This document shows positions 7,494-14,966 of a stretch of 64,000 nucleotides of DNA, one piece after another. The DNA comes from Prevotella sp. E2-28. GTDB lineage: Bacteria > Bacteroidota > Bacteroidia > Bacteroidales > Bacteroidaceae. The DNA lies in contig NZ_CP091788.1 of assembly GCF_022024055.1 (NCBI RefSeq), positions 2,232,001-2,296,000 on the forward strand. The letters are read 5' to 3'. A program made the position numbers and the translations under genes. How positions within the stretch are numbered: the stretch's first letter is position 1; each line of letters opens with the position of its first letter. The notes beneath the pieces were generated by a model. The model was not told the DNA's origin. It saw nothing but the letters and a program-made list of their open reading frames with translations, and did no database searches.

Positions 7494-7925
7494 ATGCCCA
7501 TCAACAACAATCATCCCGACCCACAAGGTGAGCGCGAAAAATTCGTCCTCGCCTTCAACGACACCATGCTTAAAATCTGGCAGGAGCAGATTACGCTATT
7601 AGGAGTAATCGACACCGGCAGGCTTCTGCACTCTGTAAGCGCTTTGCCAGTCCGTGCTGACGGCCGCTTTATCGAGGTAGGCTTGTCGCAGGCCTTCCTC
7701 GAATACGGTCTATGGCAAGACTTCTGTACAGGAAAAGAAATCCCTAGAGGAAATAATGGCGACATCGGTCGTGAAAAGCGCCGTGTCGCCAAAAAGTGGT
7801 TTAGTAAAAAGTATTATTCCTCAGTCCTCAACCTCCGTGACTTCCTAGCTGATAACATCGGCCATTCCTTCGTTGGTCTTGTCGCCAAAGCCCTTGATGA
7901 TACTTATCGTAGATATAATCATTAA
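7494..7925 (+). CDS. Phage-like protein, HK97 gp10-type size and context
   Basis: 143 residues. Central and C-terminal motifs include YGLWQDFCTGKEIPRGN and KKWFSKKYYSSVLNLRDF, ending LDDTYRRYNH. A small basic protein following two phage-like genes fits a head-tail or tail-completion component, but the family assignment is tentative. A 5'-truncated, diverged paralogue lies at 8643-8935, which shows that more than one copy of this module has passed through the locus. No further virion genes follow, so the region is a phage remnant rather than a prophage. Confidence 0.5.
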   Translation: MPINNNHPDPQGEREKFVLAFNDTMLKIWQEQITLLGVIDTGRLLHSVSALPVRADGRFIEVGLSQAFLEYGLWQDFCTGKEIPRGNNGDIGREKRRVAKKWFSKKYYSSVLNLRDFLADNIGHSFVGLVAKALDDTYRRYNH

Positions 7926-7964
7926 TAATATTCAGAAAAAATATCTCAATTCACAAATTCTTTG

Positions 7965-8050
7965 TATATTTGCATCATCTAAATGAAAGAGTCAGTCTCA
8001 ATTTAGATTCTCTTGGTTGGGGCGCACTTATTGTGCGTCCCGTTTTATTT
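7965..8050 (+). ncRNA. Candidate small RNA with its own promoter and terminator
   Basis: TATATTTG at 7965-7972 is a -7 box (the -33 box is poor). The expected transcript from about 7978 folds into a first stem ATCTAAAT (7977-7984)/ATTTAGAT (8001-8008), then a 9-bp GC-rich stem GGGGCGCAC (8019-8027)/GTGCGTCCC (8033-8041) followed by GTTTTATTTT. The first stem encloses a 7-codon frame (MKESVSI) that ends in the closing arm. Length about 70 bases. No known RNA family is recognised. Confidence 0.45.
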
Positions 8051-8161
8051 TGCCATTAATTCAGTATCTATAACGTCCAAATCTACTTTTCTCCTGTCAA
8101 ATACATCCTGCGCTGACCTTTCATTAGTACCCGAGGTTTTCACCCACCAGCAACACCACAT
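8045..8161 (-). pseudogene. Possible 38-codon relic
   Basis: On the minus strand an ATG at 8161 opens a 38-codon frame with a protein-like charged tail (QDVFDRRKVDLDVIDTELMAK without its last residue is typical of a C-terminus) that stops right at the GC-rich hairpin at 8019-8041. The first codons encode Trp and Cys runs that are unlikely in a genuine start. It is read as the end of a lost gene; the evidence is weak. Confidence 0.2.
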
Positions 8162-8216
8162 GCCGCCCCTGAGGGGAGTTCCTGAGAAAGTGAACGTAGT
8201 TACAAATGGACTAATC

Positions 8217-8256
8217 ATTGGGGGCGGAGAACCTGATCATTTTATCCGCCCCCAAT
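8217..8256. repeat. GGGGGCGGA hairpin, copy 1
   Basis: ATTGGGGGCGGA (8217-8228) pairs perfectly with TCCGCCCCCAAT (8245-8256) around a 16-base loop. It shares its left arm (TCATTGGGGGCGGAGAA) with copy 2 at 8596. Confidence 0.8.
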
Positions 8257-8296
8257 AAACACAATAAACTCGCCCCAAATAAACTTCTAAGGCTAA

Positions 8297-8327
8297 CAAA
8301 ACACCCCCACATTGAATGTGAGGGGGG
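8297..8327 (-). terminator. Terminator of the 28-residue microprotein gene
   Basis: Read on the minus strand, CCCCCTCACATT pairs with AATGTGGGGG, allowing one bulge, and is followed by TGTTTTGTT. It starts a few bases after the stop codon at 8334. Confidence 0.65.
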
Positions 8328-8333
8328 AAGTGT

Positions 8334-8420
8334 TTAGTTGAATAATACAACTAAGTTAAGTATGAGATTGATTATCTCAATAATCAACTTAACCACTTCA
8401 AACATCTTATTGTCAGACAT
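8334..8420 (-). CDS. 28-residue hydrophobic microprotein
   Basis: ATG at 8420 to TAA at 8334. The peptide starts MSDNKMFEVVKL and continues as a single strongly hydrophobic helix rich in Ile, Leu and Val, ending VVLFN. It is long enough to span a membrane once. The gene has its own terminator immediately downstream; the start is preceded by an A-rich leader (GATAAAAACT). No clear -7 box is seen. It could be a small membrane peptide or type I toxin-like peptide; no antisense RNA is identified. It resembles in size, but not in sequence, the smalltalk peptide at 15285. Confidence 0.45.
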   Translation of the reverse strand: MSDNKMFEVVKLIIEIINLILNLVVLFN

Positions 8421-8595
8421 AGTTTTTATCTAATATATTTATACTTAATAATAAACTTTGAATGGCAATTTGGTGGTGATTTGAGCGACTTTTTTTCCCT
8501 CCATCTGCAACTTTTTTTTTGTGGGCAAAGCCCAAAGGGAATAGGGGACAACAAAGACAGCTTGGATGGCTGGGATGAAAATATTTACAGGATTC

Positions 8596-8972: not shown

Positions 8973-9425
8973 TCAGCAATCTATTATTTTCTCTCTGAAT
9001 TTATATCGTTTCATTTGAATGTAGCCTACAATACCTTCGCAGTAATGCTGCTTGCCGTCCAAACCTTCAACTGCAACTATACCTCTTTTTTTTATTTCAA
9101 ATGGAACAATATCTTCCAAATAGAAGAACCTTTCTTCTTTGCTACCACTCTCTGCAATTCTGAATAAAGCAGAAACTCTTGCTTTATTACTGCGCTTGCT
9201 GAACACTAAACCTTCTGCGTTTAAAATTTTCTTTAAAGATGTTCTATATGTATTTCCCATATCATCTTCAAAAGTTACAGGAATCCAAGAGCCTTCTCTA
9301 AATCGCACGGATTCAGTAGCAATAGAAACAAGATAACTCCTTGTAGGCAATGGCTGAGGACTAAAAGTTACTCTCTCTTCTTCTAGTAGTTTTGCAACAT
9401 CATCAATTTTATAATTGTCTATCAT
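8973..9425 (-). CDS. Hypothetical protein
   Basis: 150 residues from the Met at 9425. The frame extends upstream to a GTG at 9479, but a -7 box TACGTTTG lies inside that extension (9457-9450), so a transcript from it could only use the inner ATG, about 18 bases downstream of the predicted transcription start. The protein is mixed alpha/beta, with a central beta-rich part (ESVRFREGSWIPVTFEDD) that could be an OB- or SH3-like barrel. I recognise no family. It converges on the end of the phage-like relic at 8935. Confidence 0.55.
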   Translation of the reverse strand: MIDNYKIDDVAKLLEEERVTFSPQPLPTRSYLVSIATESVRFREGSWIPVTFEDDMGNTYRTSLKKILNAEGLVFSKRSNKARVSALFRIAESGSKEERFFYLEDIVPFEIKKRGIVAVEGLDGKQHYCEGIVGYIQMKRYKFREKIIDC

Positions 9426-9449
9426 ATTAATATTATTGTTAATACGTTG

Positions 9450-9457
9450 CAAACGTA
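9450..9457 (-). promoter_or_regulatory. -7 box inside the apparent 5' end of the hypothetical gene
   Basis: TACGTTTG on the minus strand matches TAnnTTTG. The expected -33 position has only a weak TTAG-like sequence. It decides the start of the gene ending at 8973. Confidence 0.5.
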
Positions 9458-9536
9458 ATAATTTTGATAAAATTTGCACTAATATTATTCAAAAATGATA
9501 TGAAATTTAATATTATTTAATAAAAGCAATAAATAA

Positions 9537-9812
9537 TCATTGCAGCATCTCACAAAGTTTATCTTCTCTGATAATCTTTGGAGTAGCCTTCCCTGCCAGC
9601 ACCAACACCTTCTTACCATTACGGTAAATATGTAGCTGTCGAGAACGGACTACTGCCGTCAGTTCCGCATCGTCCTGCATTGCCAGCCATAGAGGATGAT
9701 AAATGCCATCCTCTTCAAATAGCTTCTTCTGCAGGTGCGAGCACATATTTGTAGTATCAATTGTCATCGTATCTTCAATTTGTTTATGTCCAAAACTCCT
9801 TTTCCAGGACAT
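9537..9812 (-). CDS. Short conserved hypothetical, probably N-terminal fragment
   Basis: 91 codons from the first Met; inner starts at residues 16 and 23 are possible. The segment FEEDGIYHPLWLAMQDDAELTAVVRSRQLHIYRNGKKVLVLAGKA looks like a genuine conserved N-terminal region (split here: FEEDGIYHPLW, then AELTAVVRSRQ, then YRNGKKVLVLAGKA) followed by a stop at REDKLCEMLQ. I recall longer Bacteroidota proteins starting like this, so truncation is likely, but I cannot name the family with confidence. Its 5' end abuts an acetyltransferase remnant. Confidence 0.4.
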   Translation of the reverse strand: MSWKRSFGHKQIEDTMTIDTTNMCSHLQKKLFEEDGIYHPLWLAMQDDAELTAVVRSRQLHIYRNGKKVLVLAGKATPKIIREDKLCEMLQ

Positions 9813-9995
9813 TACTTTATTTGCTTCTTAAATATCGCAGGATTGCCAGCCACCAGAGAATGGGGCGGCACATTCTTTATTACCACAGAGCCTGCTGCAA
9901 TAACGGCACCATCGCCAATCGTCACACCTGGCAGAATCGTGGAATGGCCCCCAATCCAAACATCGTGACCTATCGTGATGGGTAGTCCATAAAAG
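9812..9995 (-). pseudogene. C-terminal remnant of a hexapeptide O-acetyltransferase (maltose/galactoside type)
   Basis: Minus strand reads ...[34 protein letters not shown], then [18 protein letters not shown] and stop at 9812. These are left-handed beta-helix hexapeptide repeats and the C-terminal signature of Maa/LacA-type acetyltransferases. The frame closes at a TGA just upstream (about 9997-10017), so only the last third survives. Next to it on the same strand is an intact relative (10020-10667), so recombination between related genes may have caused the loss. Confidence 0.7.
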
Positions 9996-10019
9996 AGTGA
10001 TATCTCTTTTCCATATCAT

Positions 10020-10667
10020 TCATATTTTTGTCTTTAGCTCTTCCTTGACCTTTTCCAAATCGCTACACGATAGTATCGGCATGAGGTTTTCTATCTCCTC
10101 AATGCTCTTGTCCCACCATCGGAGCTTGAGCAAAATTTCTATCAATTCATCGTCGAAACGTTTCCTAACTACACGACAGGGATTCCCAACGGCGATAGCA
10201 TACGGAGGAATATCTTTAGCGACAACCGAATTGGTTCCGATGATGGCTCCATCACCAATATGTACGCCTGGCATAATCGTGACGTTCTGACCAATCCAAA
10301 CATCGTTGCCAATAATGGTGTCGCCTTTCAATGGAAGTTCTCCCTTCACAGGTGCAATAGCACTTCCCCAGTCACCTCCCATAATGTAGAACGGATAGGT
10401 GGTTGCGCAATCCATCCTATGATTGGCCCCGTTCATCACAAACTCTACGCCTTTGGCAATAGCACAGAACTTCCCGATAATCAGCTTGTCACCTATGAAG
10501 TCATAGAAGTGTGTGACGTGCTTCTCAAATTGGTCAGCACCATCCACGTCATCGTAATAGGTATAGTCACCGATGATGATTCGCGGGTTCTTTACCACAT
10601 TCTTGATAAAACAAAGTCGTGGCAGGTTAGGATTTGGAAATACCTCGTTGGGATTTGGTCTATTCAT
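10020..10667 (-). CDS. Vat/CatB-type xenobiotic O-acetyltransferase
   Basis: A left-handed beta-helix acetyltransferase of the Vat (streptogramin A) / CatB-like group; members transfer acetyl from acetyl-CoA to hydroxyls of antibiotics or other small molecules. The start is taken at MNRPNPNEVFPNPNLP (Met at 10667), typical of the family; Mets at 10676 and 10700 are alternatives. Landmarks: GDYTYYDD near residue 33, KFCAIAKGVEFVMNGANHRMD in the middle with the catalytic-type His, GNDVWIGQNVTIMPGV and AVGNPCRVVRKRF near the C-terminus. About 215 residues, normal length. Actual resistance activity cannot be read from sequence. Its upstream ATG overlaps the stop of a dehydrogenase remnant. Confidence 0.8.
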   Translation of the reverse strand: MNRPNPNEVFPNPNLPRLCFIKNVVKNPRIIIGDYTYYDDVDGADQFEKHVTHFYDFIGDKLIIGKFCAIAKGVEFVMNGANHRMDCATTYPFYIMGGDWGSAIAPVKGELPLKGDTIIGNDVWIGQNVTIMPGVHIGDGAIIGTNSVVAKDIPPYAIAVGNPCRVVRKRFDDELIEILLKLRWWDKSIEEIENLMPILSCSDLEKVKEELKTKI

Positions 10668-10672
10668 TATTG

Positions 10673-10770
10673 TCATAATTGTTTTGATGTTAAAGTCCAA
10701 CCATGGTCGCCGTGGTATATCATCTGATGGGTCATGCCGCCGTCGATACAGATGTTCTCGCCTGTTTCAT
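10673..10770 (-). pseudogene. C-terminal remnant of a short-chain dehydrogenase (SDR)
   Basis: The minus strand reads ETGENICIDGGMTHQMIYHG, then DHGWTLTSKQL and stop (TGA at 10673-10675). TGENICIDGGMT is the well-known C-terminal signature of SDR oxidoreductases. The rest of the enzyme is gone; upstream is the unrelated gene ending at 10783. The stop overlaps a possible ATG of the acetyltransferase, suggesting the two were once translationally coupled. Confidence 0.7.
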
Positions 10771-10782
10771 CTTTTAATCCTA

Positions 10783-11325
10783 TTAGTTTTTGCGTTTGAA
10801 CTTATTCTTGAGACGTTTATATCCTTCGACGCCCAGGATGGTAAGGCCTCCATACTGACAAGTCTTTGCCAATCCGAAGAGTACCGTCCAAAGGATACCT
10901 TTTGCCGTAACGCTGATAGGTAATAGCATCTGGGCGAAGGATAATATATAAAACGGGATGCAGCATAGCAGTACGATGACTCCCGTCCTGAACGAGAGCG
11001 ATTGCAGCCAATGCTTCACGTTATAGAATGTGTGAACGATGGCATCTTTTGGAGAATACAGAATCATTCTTGGGCCTGCCCAGCGCATGATTTCACGTAT
11101 CTGCTCACGCTCTTTTGACGCATAGCAATGCGTCGGACAGTTCTTGCATGCAGTCTTGTTTTCACCATATTTGCAATGGTCGAGACGGCGACATGCAAAC
11201 TCTGCCAGATGTTGATACTCTTCTGGCATGGTTTCCACCTTCAGATGATGACGGCAATATAGTTCTATCATCCTCTGGACGGTCTGTTTCTCGCGCTCAA
11301 TCCTGTTCATTCCTTTCTTTGCCAT
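10783..11325 (-). CDS. Nitrous-oxide-stimulated promoter family protein (YgbA-like) with membrane tail
   Basis: 180 residues. Residues 1-105 match the YgbA/NosP-like family: a basic N-terminus, then a Cys cluster CKYGENKTACKNCPTHCY at about 51-68 and the conserved REQIREIMRWAGPRM at about 73-87. In enterobacteria ygbA belongs to the NO-responsive NsrR regulon; the biochemical role is unknown. Residues 116-165 form two hydrophobic segments, followed by a Lys/Arg-rich end, so the protein is probably membrane-anchored. A -7 box TACTTTTG lies on this strand at 11599-11592, but about 270 bases upstream, with a coding-like remnant in between. Confidence 0.75.
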   Translation of the reverse strand: MAKKGMNRIEREKQTVQRMIELYCRHHLKVETMPEEYQHLAEFACRRLDHCKYGENKTACKNCPTHCYASKEREQIREIMRWAGPRMILYSPKDAIVHTFYNVKHWLQSLSFRTGVIVLLCCIPFYILSFAQMLLPISVTAKGILWTVLFGLAKTCQYGGLTILGVEGYKRLKNKFKRKN

Positions 11326-11685: not shown

Positions 11686-12468
11686 ATGATAGGAGCAATA
11701 ATCGGAGATATCGTTGGTAGCCGTTGGGAGTTTAACCCGACAAATGACTACGGCTTTGAGTGGCTGTCAGATAGAAATGGGTACACTGACGACACGATAT
11801 GTACAGTCGCTGTAGCAGATGCATTATTGCATGGCCGCGACTTCGGCGAAAGCATTCATGATTGGTGCAATCGCTATCCAAATCCGATGGGTGGATATGG
11901 TGGACGTTTTGCCCAATGGGTACATAGCGACAATCCTCAGCCATACAACAGTTTTGGTAATGGCTCTGCAATGCGCGTATCTCCAGTAGCTCACTGGTAC
12001 AAGCACATCGACGAGGTGCTTGATGCCGCTGCAGCCACAGCCCTCCCCTCTCATAATCATGATGAAGGTATAAAAGGGGCTCAGACCGTAGCACTTGCAA
12101 TTTTCAGAGCTCTTCAGTTTGGCGAACAAGCACCAGATCACATTGGCGAAATTCTTAAAGAGTGTGTCCAGTTCTCTGGCTATGATATCAATATCAATAA
12201 ATCCGATGTTATCAATCGGTTCGATGAAACATGCCAGGGCACTGTCCCTGTCGCTCTATGGATAATAGGCATCAGCAACAGCTTTGAGGATGCAGTTCGT
12301 AAGGCAGTAAGCCTCGGTGCAGACGCCGACACTTTGGGTGCCATCGTTGGCAGTATCGCTGAAGCGATTTGGGGTATACCTCTTAATATCAGGAAAAGCA
12401 TAAAAAGCTTTCTTCCAGAAGAGATGAATGACATCGTGATTGAATTTTACGAAATGATAAATAGATAG
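11686..12468 (+). CDS. ADP-ribosylglycohydrolase family protein (DraG/ARH type)
   Basis: 260 residues. The family removes ADP-ribose from proteins or small molecules using a two-metal centre. Visible signatures: GAIIGDIVGSRWE at 3-15, TDDT near residue 34 (metal ligands), NSFGNGSAMRVSPVA near 90, and the C-terminal SLGADADTLGAIVGSIAEAIWG near 206-227 with the second metal-binding Asp pair. Full length for the bacterial subfamily. A Nudix hydrolase gene starts three bases after its stop, so the two are translated from one message. The product is expected to be cytoplasmic. Confidence 0.92.
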   Translation: MIGAIIGDIVGSRWEFNPTNDYGFEWLSDRNGYTDDTICTVAVADALLHGRDFGESIHDWCNRYPNPMGGYGGRFAQWVHSDNPQPYNSFGNGSAMRVSPVAHWYKHIDEVLDAAAATALPSHNHDEGIKGAQTVALAIFRALQFGEQAPDHIGEILKECVQFSGYDININKSDVINRFDETCQGTVPVALWIIGISNSFEDAVRKAVSLGADADTLGAIVGSIAEAIWGIPLNIRKSIKSFLPEEMNDIVIEFYEMINR

Positions 12469-12471
12469 GAA

Positions 12472-12909
12472 ATGGATTATACATACAAATACCCGCGTCC
12501 GGCAGTCACAGCTGACTGTGTAGTTATAACAAAAGAGCCTCAGCCAAAAGTGCTGCTTATTCAAAGAGGGGCTGACCCATACAAGGGAGGTTGGGCATTC
12601 CCTGGTGGCTTCATGAATATGGATGAAACCACGGAACAATGTGCTATCCGCGAACTGGAGGAAGAAACAGGACTGAAGGTGTCTGAGGTTCATCAGATTG
12701 GTGCATACTCAAAGGTAGATCGTGATCCACGAGGAAGAACCATAACTGTGGCTTATCTCGCCATCATAGATTTCCCCCAGATGGTGAAAGGTCAGGATGA
12801 TGCAGCCAAGGCTGAGTGGTTTCCGATAGACGCACTACCGCCGTTGGCTTTCGACCATGAAGAGATTATGAAGGATGCTGTAGCAGCCTATAATCATTTA
12901 GTATTATAA
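12472..12909 (+). CDS. Nudix hydrolase
   Basis: 145 residues. A perfect Nudix box (G-x5-E-x7-REUxEExGU) starts at GGFMNMDETTE and runs to RELEEETGL, about residues 41-65, with the catalytic metal-binding Glu pair in place. The N-terminus (RPAVTADCVVI) and the VDRDPRGRTITVAYLA segment are typical of the ADP-ribose pyrophosphatase-like branch. Its tight coupling to an ADP-ribosylglycohydrolase (3-base gap) suggests that it hydrolyses ADP-ribose released by that enzyme to AMP and ribose-5-phosphate; substrate is inferred. Confidence 0.9.
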   Translation: MDYTYKYPRPAVTADCVVITKEPQPKVLLIQRGADPYKGGWAFPGGFMNMDETTEQCAIRELEEETGLKVSEVHQIGAYSKVDRDPRGRTITVAYLAIIDFPQMVKGQDDAAKAEWFPIDALPPLAFDHEEIMKDAVAAYNHLVL

Positions 12910-12917
12910 GACATAAA

Positions 12918-12965
12918 GAAGCCCCTTCAGTTTCCGGTTTTGTACGCCGGGCTTCGCGGGGCTTC
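12918..12965. repeat. Hairpin between the Nudix and VWA genes
   Basis: GAAGCCCC (12918-12925) pairs with GGGGCTTC (12958-12965), with an inner CCGG/CCGG pairing. No T-run follows on the plus strand. It lies between convergent genes and may block read-through or be a REP-like unit. Confidence 0.5.
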
Positions 12966-12991
12966 CAGAAAAGGGAAAAAACTAATCCGAA

Positions 12992-13714
12992 TTAATTTCC
13001 CTCTTCCTCAAAGAACTTTCCTTTAGGAATAGGTGCACATTCTGCCAAACAGCAGTTGTAGCGTTCACGACTTCTGCGCTCGCGACGAAACATAGCCTTG
13101 GTGCCTTCCTCATCCTGCTGGAATTCCATGTGTTCCTCAATAGCAAAAGAATTGGCCATTGTCTCTACATCGAGGTTATCGGTTCCTATCAGCGTAAAGA
13201 TCCAGTTCTGTTTCTTCAGCTTTTCGATAAGTGTACGAACCATCTTCAAGGTCCACTCCTCACTACTGTTCTCCTCACCGTCGGTAATGATAGTCACCAA
13301 TACGTGGTCACCTTCCTCAATCTGAGCATTGACCTTTGAGATACCTTTGCCGATGGCATCATAAAGAGGTGTGCCACCGCCAGGATTGTAGGCCTTCCAA
13401 CTCAGGTCACTAGTTTTGTCTGCAGGTGTGTTGTCGTAGTGCCAGGTGGTGTGGCTACTGTCAAACGTTACCAAGGTTACAAACTGTTCCTGGTCATTGA
13501 ACTTTTTCTGCATCTGCCTTACAGTCTGCAAGGTTTCGTTCATACCTACAAAGGCTTGCTTGCGGATGACATACATACTGCCGCTTTCATCAACGATAAT
13601 CAGGTTGTGAACTCGCTTTGTTTTAATTTCTTTCGTTTTGCCCTTTGGGCGAAAATTCTCACGCTCGGAAGAATGAGTAAACTCTTTCTTCTCTCTCTTA
13701 ATCGAATTTTTCAT
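12992..13714 (-). CDS. VWA-domain protein
   Basis: 240 residues from the Met at 13714 (MKNSIKREKKEF); an upstream Met at 13741 is less likely. A von Willebrand type A domain covers about residues 35-200 with an intact MIDAS: DESGSM near 44, a Thr in PGGGTPLYD, and the ITDGEENSS Asp. The C-terminus is charged, with two adjacent Cys (NCCLAEC). There is no signal peptide or membrane segment, so it is cytoplasmic, unlike the BatA/BatB proteins at 40-42 kb. It lies between the Nudix gene and the divergent sigma-like fusion gene. VWA proteins of this kind often act as scaffolds with AAA ATPases, but none is adjacent. Confidence 0.85.
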   Translation of the reverse strand: MKNSIKREKKEFTHSSERENFRPKGKTKEIKTKRVHNLIIVDESGSMYVIRKQAFVGMNETLQTVRQMQKKFNDQEQFVTLVTFDSSHTTWHYDNTPADKTSDLSWKAYNPGGGTPLYDAIGKGISKVNAQIEEGDHVLVTIITDGEENSSEEWTLKMVRTLIEKLKKQNWIFTLIGTDNLDVETMANSFAIEEHMEFQQDEEGTKAMFRRERRSRERYNCCLAECAPIPKGKFFEEEGN

Positions 13715-13883
13715 AATCGTAATATTTAAATGGTGAAACATGTTGTTTTAATTACTATTTATCTCTTTATCTTTGATGAAGATTTTTTCGCTCGGAAATT
13801 GAAGCAAGCTTCATTTCACTCGCTTATTTATATCTTTGAAGAAGAATTCAGAAAAAAATTAAGTAAGAATGAAAAAAAATTAG

Positions 13884-13891
13884 TATCTTCG
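13884..13891 (+). promoter_or_regulatory. -7 box of the sigma-like fusion gene
   Basis: TATCTTCG at 13884-13891 is one base off TAnnTTTG. Transcription from about 13898 would leave only ~10 bases before the ATG at 13908. Further TATCTTTG motifs occur upstream around 13767 and 13833. Confidence 0.45.
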
Positions 13892-13907
13892 CCCAAAATT
13901 ATTGAAT

Positions 13908-14966
13908 ATGTACTACCGATGCCTATCTGACAAAGAGATTCTAAACGGCTTCCGTAAAGGCAATGCCGATATTATCCGGGATTATTTCTACGGATATTGT
14001 GAGGTAGGCTATAATATTTTCGACCAACGCTATCAGCTCAGAGAGAAACAGAATCTGGACTTTATGTCGTTAGCCCATCAGTATGCTATATTTTTGATGG
14101 AACACGACTGGAAACCCTTGGAGGATCATTCGCCGAATATCAGCTTGAAGACCTGGCTTATCAATGGATTCAGATATGTGGTTCTCGACGCGCTGAAGTG
14201 GTACAAGAAAGAATATGGTAGTATCACCTTTGAAGACTATCTTCGCTCATTCGACGTGACAAGCGACCTTCGTCTACAGTTCAACCACATGGTGGAAGAC
14301 GTTTGCGACCATGTGCCAATGGGACGCGAGGAAAGGCTCATCATTCATATGATGCTCCTTAATGGGTTCAAAGGGAAAGAGGTGGCAGATAAGATGGGGG
14401 TTACTCCAGCAGCTATCTCACAGAAATACAAGAAACTGAAGGAGGATATCATTGTGCCGTATTTCCGTCAGAACTTCGACATGGACCTGGATATGCCAGA
14501 GGTATTCGACGTTTATGGAGAGCCAATGGCAGAGGAAGCTGCTATGCCGCCTATGGGAATGGAACGTATCAAACTATATATGCCAGAGGATATGGAACAG
14601 AAGAGAACGACGCCGGAGCATATCACATCGCTCCAGCCAAACGAGATTTTCGTATTCGGCAGCAACCTCCGTGGTATGCACGGTGGAGGTGCAGCCTATG
14701 TTGCCCTGCGTAAGTTCGGCGCCATCATGGGACAAGGTGTTGGGTTGCAAGGACAGAGCTACGCCATCCCCACGATGCAGGGTGGTGTGGAAACAATCAA
14801 GCCGTATGTGGACGAGTTCATCGAGTTTGCCAAGCAGCACCCCACCCTCACCTTCCTTGTTACAAGAATAGGTTGTGGTATTGCAGGATTTTCGGATGAA
14901 GAGATATCGCCATTATTCGAAAAAGCACATGAAATAGAAAACATTATTCTGCCACCAGGATGGTAA
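13908..14966 (+). CDS. Sigma-70-like protein fused to an A1S_2505-type (macro-like) domain
   Basis: 352 residues from the ATG at 13908; an in-frame TTG at 13902 is rejected. The N-terminal ~185 residues look like a region-2/region-4 sigma factor: KTWLINGFRYVVLDALKWYKK at about 81-101 resembles region 2, and GKEVADKMGVTPAAISQKYK at about 156-175 is a helix-turn-helix like region 4. After an acidic, Met-rich linker, residues 235-352 match the A1S_2505 family annotated as phage non-structural: FVFGSNLRGMHGGGAA at 248-263, GQSYAIPTM, VTRIGCGIAGF near 318-328, ending NIILPPGW. The Gly-rich loops suggest nucleotide or ADP-ribose binding. The fusion suggests transcription controlled by a nucleotide-derived ligand; this is inference. 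Confidence 0.75.
   Translation: MYYRCLSDKEILNGFRKGNADIIRDYFYGYCEVGYNIFDQRYQLREKQNLDFMSLAHQYAIFLMEHDWKPLEDHSPNISLKTWLINGFRYVVLDALKWYKKEYGSITFEDYLRSFDVTSDLRLQFNHMVEDVCDHVPMGREERLIIHMMLLNGFKGKEVADKMGVTPAAISQKYKKLKEDIIVPYFRQNFDMDLDMPEVFDVYGEPMAEEAAMPPMGMERIKLYMPEDMEQKRTTPEHITSLQPNEIFVFGSNLRGMHGGGAAYVALRKFGAIMGQGVGLQGQSYAIPTMQGGVETIKPYVDEFIEFAKQHPTLTFLVTRIGCGIAGFSDEEISPLFEKAHEIENIILPPGW

Follow-up and report, generated by a model that had tools for sequence, protein, structure and literature searches.

In a 64,000-nucleotide stretch of the Prevotella sp. E2-28 genome (contig NZ_CP091788.1, positions 2,232,001 to 2,296,000; hereafter the window), four neighboring genes encode an ADP-ribosylglycohydrolase (ARH), a Nudix hydrolase, a VWA-domain protein, and a fusion protein that joins a half resembling extracytoplasmic function (ECF) sigma factors to a C-terminal A1S_2505 domain, here predicted to be a macrodomain. 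The stable unit is the divergent pair formed by the VWA and sigma-macro genes, and ARH and Nudix are its looser companions. The best explanation of the locus, to which we assign a probability of roughly 45%, is that the sigma-like protein serves as a sensor and the VWA protein as its partner, with ARH and Nudix as accessory effectors. This reading draws on gene order, family assignments, a predicted fold, the conserved pair with its intergenic element, non-random linkage, and gene fusions. The genome comprises 3.76 Mb on two contigs, C1 and C2, and the features at the locus, in window coordinates, are as follows.

11686 to 12468, + strand: ARH, an ADP-ribosylglycohydrolase of ARH/DraG type, 260 aa (PF03747, PHROG 6572)
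12472 to 12909, + strand: Nudix hydrolase, 145 aa (PF00293), separated from the ARH stop by a 3-nt gap
12992 to 13741, - strand: VWA-domain protein, 249 aa (PHROG 7371); likelier start ATG 13713
13819 to 13863, + strand: conserved intergenic element between the VWA and sigma-macro genes (profile)
13884 to 13891, + strand: -7-like box, TAnnTT(T/C/A)G
13902 to 14966, + strand: sigma-like/A1S_2505 fusion protein, 354 aa with a TTG start; conserved-start ATG 13908 suggested
13908 to 14477, + strand: ECF-sigma-like N-terminal half (full-length model, Foldseek, and Sigma70_r4_2/Sigma70_ECF in relatives)
14607 to 14966, + strand: A1S_2505 domain, predicted compact macrodomain of the ALC1/TARG1/Poa1p type (NF049995, domain model, Foldseek)

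The four genes named in a first-pass annotation of this DNA are real open reading frames (ORFs) between 11686 and 14966, as found by an ORF check and by family scans that covered 8 genes between 10020 and 16583. The coupling of ARH and Nudix proposed there agrees with a Nudix start 3 nt past the ARH stop on the same strand. Start codons conserved among homologues suggest ATG 13908 over TTG 13902 for the sigma gene and make ATG 13713, on the minus strand, the likelier start of the VWA gene. Outside its own genome, the fusion protein found its best match, at 92% identity, in an uncultured Prevotellaceae bacterium.

The VWA and sigma-macro genes form a conserved divergent pair

Eighty of 267 fusion relatives were kept, as were 80 of 504 in another relative set, and alignments A2 and A3 were built from 66 and 59 chosen sequences (L054 was excluded from one alignment for a stop in frame). 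The 65 fusion loci examined (L006-L070) include many cut by contig ends and 8 with less than 400 nt of upstream sequence. Where at least 400 nt was present, a VWA gene lay directly upstream of the sigma-macro gene and divergent to it in 55 of 57 loci, the exceptions being L022 and L070, and the partner was retained down to 37% identity in the sigma half. Clustering of the neighbors of these loci returned VWA as the sole frequent partner (47 loci), followed by Nudix (14) and ARH (7). In a second sample, drawn from the family, near-full-length fusions were found in 10 of 121 genomes including our own (11 rows, beginning at query residue 8 or earlier), and a VWA gene lay within 5 kb in 8 of these 10. 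We have little doubt that VWA is the regular partner of the sigma-macro gene. The VWA protein itself matched PHROG 7371 best (113 bits) and stayed under the Pfam cut-offs for PF13519 (18.7 vs 27) and PF05762 (20.7 vs 26.4); its homologues carry DxSxS in 78 of 79 distinct ORFs, and a stricter metal ion-dependent adhesion site (MIDAS) pattern in only 22 of the 79.

Between the two genes lies a conserved element with the consensus TTTATctcTTTaAAGAag.tTTt...aAAAAATTAAG. Its box A, in one of several allowed variants, was present in 57 of 59 upstream regions, and the -7-like box followed the element by 19-20 nt in 56 of 57. A profile of the element was trained on 56 regions, the window included, so that the window's own score of 50 at 13819-13863 is by construction; the next best place in the window scored 5.4, and the best in a shuffled window 6.4. 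A second VWA/sigma-macro pair is located on the 205-kb contig C2 at 108471-110362. Its copy of the element, which lies outside the training set, scored 62, and elsewhere in C2 the profile reached at most 12. Because the element is conserved and the -7-like box stands at a fixed distance from it, the VWA and sigma-macro genes are likely to share a dedicated control.

A predicted macrodomain joined to a sigma-like half

The C-terminus of the fusion matched NF049995 (A1S_2505) at 147.8 bits, against a cut-off of 45. NCBIfam describes A1S_2505 merely as a phage non-structural protein, and neither NCBIfam nor PHROGs gives it a function. Modeled alone, the domain reached a mean pLDDT of 95.5 and a pTM of 0.90, and in a Foldseek comparison with the PDB, ranks 1-14 were occupied by entries of Poa1p, SCO6735, BT1257, ALC1, and TARG1/C6orf130, several of which contain ADP-ribose (TMq 0.55-0.71, probability 0.97-1.00, E 3.7e-3 to 3.4e-2). 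The BT1257 entry, 2fg1, is titled as of unknown function and lacks the word macro in its title. Among the 50 matches listed, MacroD2, DarG, the PARP14 macrodomain, and Af1521 stood further down, and from rank 15 macrodomains were mixed with designed hydrolases and about two unrelated chains. In a profile search of PDB sequences, the top five entries were of TARG1, the alignment running through the IGCG motif (E 0.05-0.07), and the C-terminal half of the full-length model likewise matched TARG1 and Poa1p in Foldseek. The macro-like fold, guessed in the first-pass annotation from Gly-rich loops, is backed by this structure prediction, and we regard the modeled domain as almost certainly a macrodomain. 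The macrodomain fold commonly binds ADP-ribose.

The catalytic residues of TARG1 are Lys84 and Glu125 in the part of PMC7050489 available to us; the TARG1 PDB chain in our alignment has Asp at 125. The two columns were placed by counting, from the TARG1 alignment and the residue names in that part, and were compared across 184 distinct domains, with ORFs of at least 300 aa taken as fusion-length. The Lys column holds Met in 59 of 59 fusion-length and 21 of 21 shorter Prevotella domains, and Lys in 45 of 78 viral or other domains. At the 125 column, Ala stands in 58 of 59 fusion-length domains (the remaining one has a gap), in 21 of 21 shorter Prevotella domains, and in 77 of 78 viral or other domains. 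With the TARG1 dyad absent from the sigma-fused copies, a reader would fit them better than a TARG1-type hydrolase. The loss only leans that way, because neither TARG1 residue is present in SCO6735, which is itself a macrodomain hydrolase (PMC7050489, in the same part), a point that counts against a sensor.

The same columns bear on a different possibility, in which the macrodomain would be an ADP-ribosylhydrolase that the sigma-like half tethers to RNA polymerase or promoter DNA, there to strip ADP-ribose of phage or stress origin. Such an enzyme would suit the macrodomain fold and the stand-alone and ARH-fused copies of the domain, and it has a precedent in SCO6735, which is ALC1-like and works without the TARG1 dyad (PMC7050489, in part). 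We nevertheless think it improbable, as the sigma-fused copies have other residues at both TARG1 catalytic columns and the conserved intergenic element points to a dedicated control of transcription. Compared with ALC1-like macrodomains (TARG1, ALC1, DarG, SCO6735) and Poa1p, the window's domain shares the fold, a Gly-rich loop, and the TARG1-aligned IGCG motif; it differs in its length of about 119 aa, in the change of the TARG1 dyad to Met/Ala in sigma-fused copies, and in the attached sigma-like half.

A Met occurs within the 14-residue stretch just before the domain in 48 of 52 fusions, the window's included, and stand-alone copies begin with nearly identical residues at that stretch. Because of this match, the fusion is probably the product of joining with a stand-alone macrodomain gene. 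Across 51 relatives, protein identity to the window copy was 0.86 in the macro part and 0.77 in the sigma part, at median four-fold-site identities of 0.37 and 0.33. Gene conversion as the source of the high macrodomain conservation was rejected, since low four-fold-site identity beside high protein identity fits purifying selection better.

In the full-length model (pLDDT 82.1, pTM 0.47), a low-confidence linker covers residues 197-238. The top Foldseek matches of the N-terminal half were ECF sigma factors (SigH, SigL, SigE, AlgU, SigW), with structural alignments spanning about 170-210 columns. Of 23 relatives, 22 matched Sigma70_r4_2, the region 4 helix-turn-helix (HTH), at E ≤ 0.1 (best 1.5e-6), and 15 matched Sigma70_ECF at that threshold (best 1.5e-7); TIGR02937 stayed under its cut-off (25.8 vs 42.9 bits). 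From its modeled fold, this half may have true sigma activity. Weak PADLOC matches in the sigma half were to ThsA (E 0.0065, residues 153-215, outside the macrodomain) and RmrA (E 0.01). Phage record MT839816.1 (H1), a 4-kb human-gut Bacteriophage sp., contains a sigma half and the start of a macrodomain at 41% identity.

ECF sigma factors with sensory C-terminal extensions include ECF41 (SnoaL), ECF238 (CorE), and ECF42 (TPR), as described in part of PMC8999054. Like them, the window protein has after its sigma half a C-terminal domain that could serve as a gate on its activity, and no anti-sigma family was found among the eight genes scanned; its extension differs in being a macrodomain, and its region 2 is only putative. 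The word macro is absent from the main text of PMC8999054 as far as it was available to us, and among the titles listed by a literature search pairing sigma factor with macrodomain, none describes such a fusion.

Linkage of the macrodomain to ARH, Nudix, and VWA genes

The ARH protein matched PF03747 at 113 bits (cut-off 26.2), PHROG 6572 at 213.5 bits, and the solved ADP-ribosylglycohydrolase 2cwc at E 4.6e-13 (phmmer). It carries the motifs YTDDT, GNGSAMR, and DADT, and among 30 homologues [YF]TDD[TS] was present in 26 and DxDT in all. The Nudix protein has a complete Nudix box, as do 20 of 27 homologues, and matched PF00293 at 86.5 bits (cut-off 21.1). Its best NCBIfam model was NtrR, a repressor responsive to ADP-ribose (ADPR), at 87.4 bits, far below the cut-off of 400; the 145-aa protein gave no winged-helix (NrtR_WHD) match and no HTH above cut-off. 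It also matched the PADLOC candidate family PDC-S07 (E 2.4e-13). General scans found no ADP-ribosyltransferase or sirtuin among the families of the eight locus genes. DarT (PF14487) had 0 matches in the whole genome, in which other ADP-ribosyltransferase families and sirtuins were not searched, and the DarTG toxin-antitoxin system was rejected as a candidate on this ground.

Linkage was counted in the 121 family genomes as pairs within 5 kb, with our own genome excluded from the pair counts. The expectation supposes independent genomes of 3.0 Mb in which the genes are placed uniformly; the genomes are related, so the counts are not independent tests. The counts draw on the full set of 82 macro and 59 Nudix rows, and 2 of 47 VWA rows (E 2.9e-11, a second piece, and 3.6e-4) and 13 of 62 ARH rows (none stronger than E 7.7e-13) were excluded; two of the excluded ARH rows (G073:C16 and G093:C1) adjoin A1S rows, and keeping them would have increased the linkage. 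One-ORF fusions included, there were 17 VWA-macro pairs (15 of 24 genomes with both; 0.19 expected) and 6 macro-ARH pairs (6 of 20 genomes; 0.15 expected). Macro and Nudix genes were paired 10 times (10 of 32 genomes with both; 0.22 expected), as were ARH and Nudix genes (10 of 29; 0.14 expected).

Fusions were surveyed in 20 fetched regions, nearly all of them chosen for such hits. A single ORF joins VWA to the macrodomain in 8 of these (L151, L153, L158-L163) and ARH to the macrodomain in 3 (L154, L155, L165). In L151 the VWA-macro gene is followed by ARH, and in L150 a macro gene is divergent to a coupled ARH-Nudix pair. Of 10 proteins tested for NF049995, 8 contained it; those lacking it were a phage poly(ADP-ribose) polymerase (PARP) and the VWA protein of L148, the second chromosomal one, which was thereby rejected as a VWA-macro fusion. 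The association of the four families proposed in the first-pass annotation is thus seen elsewhere, with linkage above random placement and several fusions. The predicted macrodomain is the hub through which VWA, ARH, Nudix, and the sigma half are connected, and the A1S_2505 domain is very probably linked in function to ARH and Nudix. In L152 the macrodomain is fused to DUF1810 (7705-8520; PF08837 175 bits) with ARH 4 nt downstream; because of this fusion and of two DUF1810 copies beside A1S, ARH, and NrtR genes on C2, a place for DUF1810 in ADP-ribose biology is suggested. Among the papers listed by a literature search, one mentions both DUF1810 and ADP-ribose, incidentally to judge by its title. 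L166 contains, at 9395-10588, a T4 gp30.3-family domain (PF08010 127.9 bits) joined to a YqiA/UPF0227-like esterase, adjoining macro and Nudix genes.

Proposed mechanism and related systems

In the reading that we prefer, the core would be a two-gene regulatory unit of a sigma-like protein with a C-terminal macrodomain and a divergent VWA gene. The macrodomain would most likely act as an on-board sensor of ADP-ribose, an ADP-ribose-derived nucleotide, or an ADP-ribosylated protein, a ligand that would appear under NAD+/ADP-ribose stress, for example when a phage ADP-ribosylates host proteins. Binding would alter the activity of the sigma-like half, whose targets would include at minimum its own divergent promoter region, and the VWA protein may be a metal-dependent protein-binding partner, either chaperone or regulator. 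As accessory effectors, ARH would take ADP-ribose off macromolecules and Nudix would cleave free ADP-ribose. The ligand, the direction of regulation, the sigma activity, the role of VWA, and the anti-ADP-ribosylation purpose are what we infer.

Several results weigh against this reading. Within the fetched flanks, ARH homologues (42-92% identity) occur in only 8 of the 65 fusion loci and Nudix homologues (at least 70% identity) in 9. The intergenic element was not found before ARH, whose promoter region gave a best profile score of -12; therefore, ARH-Nudix is not under that element. VWA is weakly linked to Nudix (3 pairs, 3 of 25 genomes with both; 0.15 expected) and to ARH (2 pairs, 2 of 18 genomes; 0.09 expected), and no VWA match was found in G009 and G024, two of the ten genomes with near-full-length fusions. 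No match to the sigma half at E ≤ 1e-10 occurred in 393 further genomes sampled from the phylum, and the sigma half is on this account lineage-restricted. No region-2 family was among the 25 of 37 Pfam families listed for the 23 relatives, and in a sequence profile of the sigma half MarR-type HTH regulators came first (TcaR, E 0.0023), with a sigma factor at E 0.19; for these two reasons we write sigma-like. Foldseek matches of the full-length and domain models to the PDB had E values of 3.5e-3 or weaker, none at 1e-3 or below, and the TARG1 sequence match falls short of significance. The four-gene module of the first-pass annotation accordingly stands in its near-constant VWA/sigma-macro half and falls as a fixed set, and support for one regulon shared by all four genes was not found.

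These counts would also be expected if the system were the VWA/sigma-macro pair only, with ARH-Nudix either adjacent by coincidence or carried along as shared cargo in a variable region. ARH and Nudix lie on either side of the fusion genes at variable distance, and no cis-element is common to ARH-Nudix and the pair. All four genes occur together in 4 of the 65 loci (L009, L010, L014, and L034, the ARH match of the last being partial). IMG/VR contigs L086 and L087 have all four too, as do L090 and L091, which may come from the same genomes as L009 and L010; by identity and gene order, the pair contigs L086-L091 were taken as pieces of Prevotella chromosome and not counted as viral. Mere adjacency nonetheless seems unlikely to us, given that the 121 genomes contain about 40 times as many macro-ARH and macro-Nudix pairs as random placement predicts, that ARH/macro fusions exist in other contexts, and that the C2 pair, too, stands beside a Nudix homologue (110530-110952, 77% identity), though one broken by a single TAG stop.

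Another alternative is that the genes handle ordinary ADP-ribose metabolites, from NAD+ turnover or RNA-end repair, rather than conflict. In L153, L157, L166, and L167, the gene immediately upstream of a macro or VWA gene encodes a long Nudix protein (237-297 aa), and both long Nudix proteins tested (from L153 and C2) contain the NrtR winged helix; NrtR is a type of regulator of NAD metabolism. The patchy distribution, on the other hand, looks like that of conflict genes or mobile cargo. Copies are found on C2, which is plasmid-like with ParA-, topoisomerase-, and transfer-like genes, and beside mobilization/integrase-like genes (both by ORF reading), and of 50,697 phage records searched with one query, 420 matched the domain, so that a housekeeping role is rather improbable.

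For the sensor reading, we put transcription control of a sensor type at slightly better than even, and an anti-phage purpose is a tentative suggestion. It is doubtful that the full proposal holds, namely that A1S_2505 is an ADP-ribose-reading macrodomain which, carried on an ECF-type sigma factor in Prevotellaceae, would form an ADP-ribose-gated transcription initiator driving a VWA-assisted anti-ADP-ribosylation program. We know of no other sigma factor with an on-board ADP-ribose sensor, and this one, if real, would be the first. In the boldest form, the sigma half would dock the macrodomain on RNA polymerase, where the protein would sense and undo the modification. RNA polymerase is a classic target of phage ADP-ribosyltransferases, as with Alt and ModA of T4 (PMC7824862, in part). 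The analysis provides a predicted fold and a biochemical theme for A1S_2505, a family common in phages, extends a predicted anti-ADP-ribosylation class to Bacteroidota, and offers a directly testable candidate for an ADP-ribose-gated transcription factor. If true, bacteria would have sigma-type alarm circuits for ADP-ribosylation, and the phage copies of the domain could be a counter-measure.

That class was predicted by Iyer et al. 2022 (PMC9503650, here and below as far as its text was available to us) as host systems centered on an ADP-ribosylglycohydrolase (ARG) and directed against viral ADP-ribosylation. Their parts are Nudix- or WYL-type regulators, vWA chaperones, and an optional macro or NADAR domain, and a missing coupled transferase was read as a sign that they undo ADP-ribosylation by invaders. 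A Nudix- or WYL-HTH factor is present in >42% of ARG-centric systems and a coupled phosphatase in a little over 55%, and a vWA or other chaperone gene is frequent, not obligate. The window shares with them an ARH, with no ADP-ribosyltransferase found among the eight genes scanned, Nudix, vWA, an extra macrodomain, a variable composition, and a regulator thought to sense ADP-ribose. Their regulators are Nudix-HTH or WYL-HTH repressors, whereas here the regulator is sigma-like with a macrodomain; phosphatases are common there, and none was found among the eight genes scanned here. The lineages named are Actinobacteria, Planctomycetes, and Proteobacteria, as opposed to Prevotellaceae, and neither a sigma factor nor DUF1810 is mentioned. 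Because Iyer et al. predicted this kind in other phyla, the locus is not wholly undescribed, and the view that it belongs to no described system had to be given up. The novelty is the sigma-like, macrodomain-bearing regulator in Prevotellaceae; the ARG-centric kind itself is still a prediction.

Macrodomains of Thoeris bind ADPR and imidazole adenine dinucleotide (IAD) signals in phage defense (PMC11204291, in part), and a macrodomain reading ADPR/IAD, as in ThsA with its transmembrane (TM) and macro domains, is what is proposed here. The locus differs in having no TIR family among the eight genes scanned and in an output that would be transcription, not membrane damage. Thoeris was rejected as an assignment, there being no TIR family, as in ThsB, among those eight genes, no TM, a macrodomain placed on a helical sigma-like half, and a weak ThsA match (E 0.0065).

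Beyond the second pair, C2 carries another A1S gene, two DUF1810 genes, an NrtR-type Nudix gene, and ARH genes. At C2:36599-40047 (L138, L139), a PP2C phosphatase, a VWA gene (Pfam), and a gene that looks by eye like a kinase are followed by two ARH genes, a row that we take to be reminiscent of TerY-P triads. On C1, a cluster at 1220845-1242281 (L169, L148) contains Nudix, WYL, VWA, reverse transcriptase, and ARH genes beside mobilization/integrase-like genes (ORF reading); the WYL protein lies next to Nudix (PF13280 42 bits), and the genome's only classical macro domain (PF01661) is located about 10 kb beyond the cluster.

The phage matches consist of the C-terminal domain only in all but one of the 40 rows listed. 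Copies in N4-like phages are annotated as N4 gp14-like or lie between gp13- and gp15-like genes. Two phage A1S proteins are named ADP-ribosylglycohydrolase; their sizes of 124 and 127 aa, close to that of the A1S domain, leave no room for an ARH domain, and the name was rejected for that reason. The BFVD entries A0A7M1RZQ7 and A0A7M1RUN7 have domain matches in uncultured-phage proteins named ART-PolyVal-like (cr116_1) and DNA helicase (cr50_1), and at L096:1533-2900 a viral copy is joined to a C-terminus that looks, by eye, like a phosphatase. In Xanthomonas phage XacN1 (L129, 2687-4618), a VWA relative lies 9 nt downstream of a gene annotated as PARP; the protein had no NCBIfam match, the name being the record's own, and it is mentioned as BBA65562.1 in part of PMC7824862. 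A general link of VWA to ADP-ribosyltransferases in phages was rejected, since PARP stood beside VWA only in XacN1 among the 6 phage loci viewed.

Two further genes upstream of ARH in the window are on the minus strand. That at 10020-10700 encodes a hexapeptide acetyltransferase with 297.4 bits against the cut-off of 300 for the Vat streptogramin A acetyltransferase (NCBIfam). The other, at 10783-11325, encodes a YgbA-type nitrous-oxide-stimulated promoter family protein (PF11756 117.6 bits), whose tail has a weak likeness to a transporter suffix domain (22.6 vs a cut-off of 40 bits).

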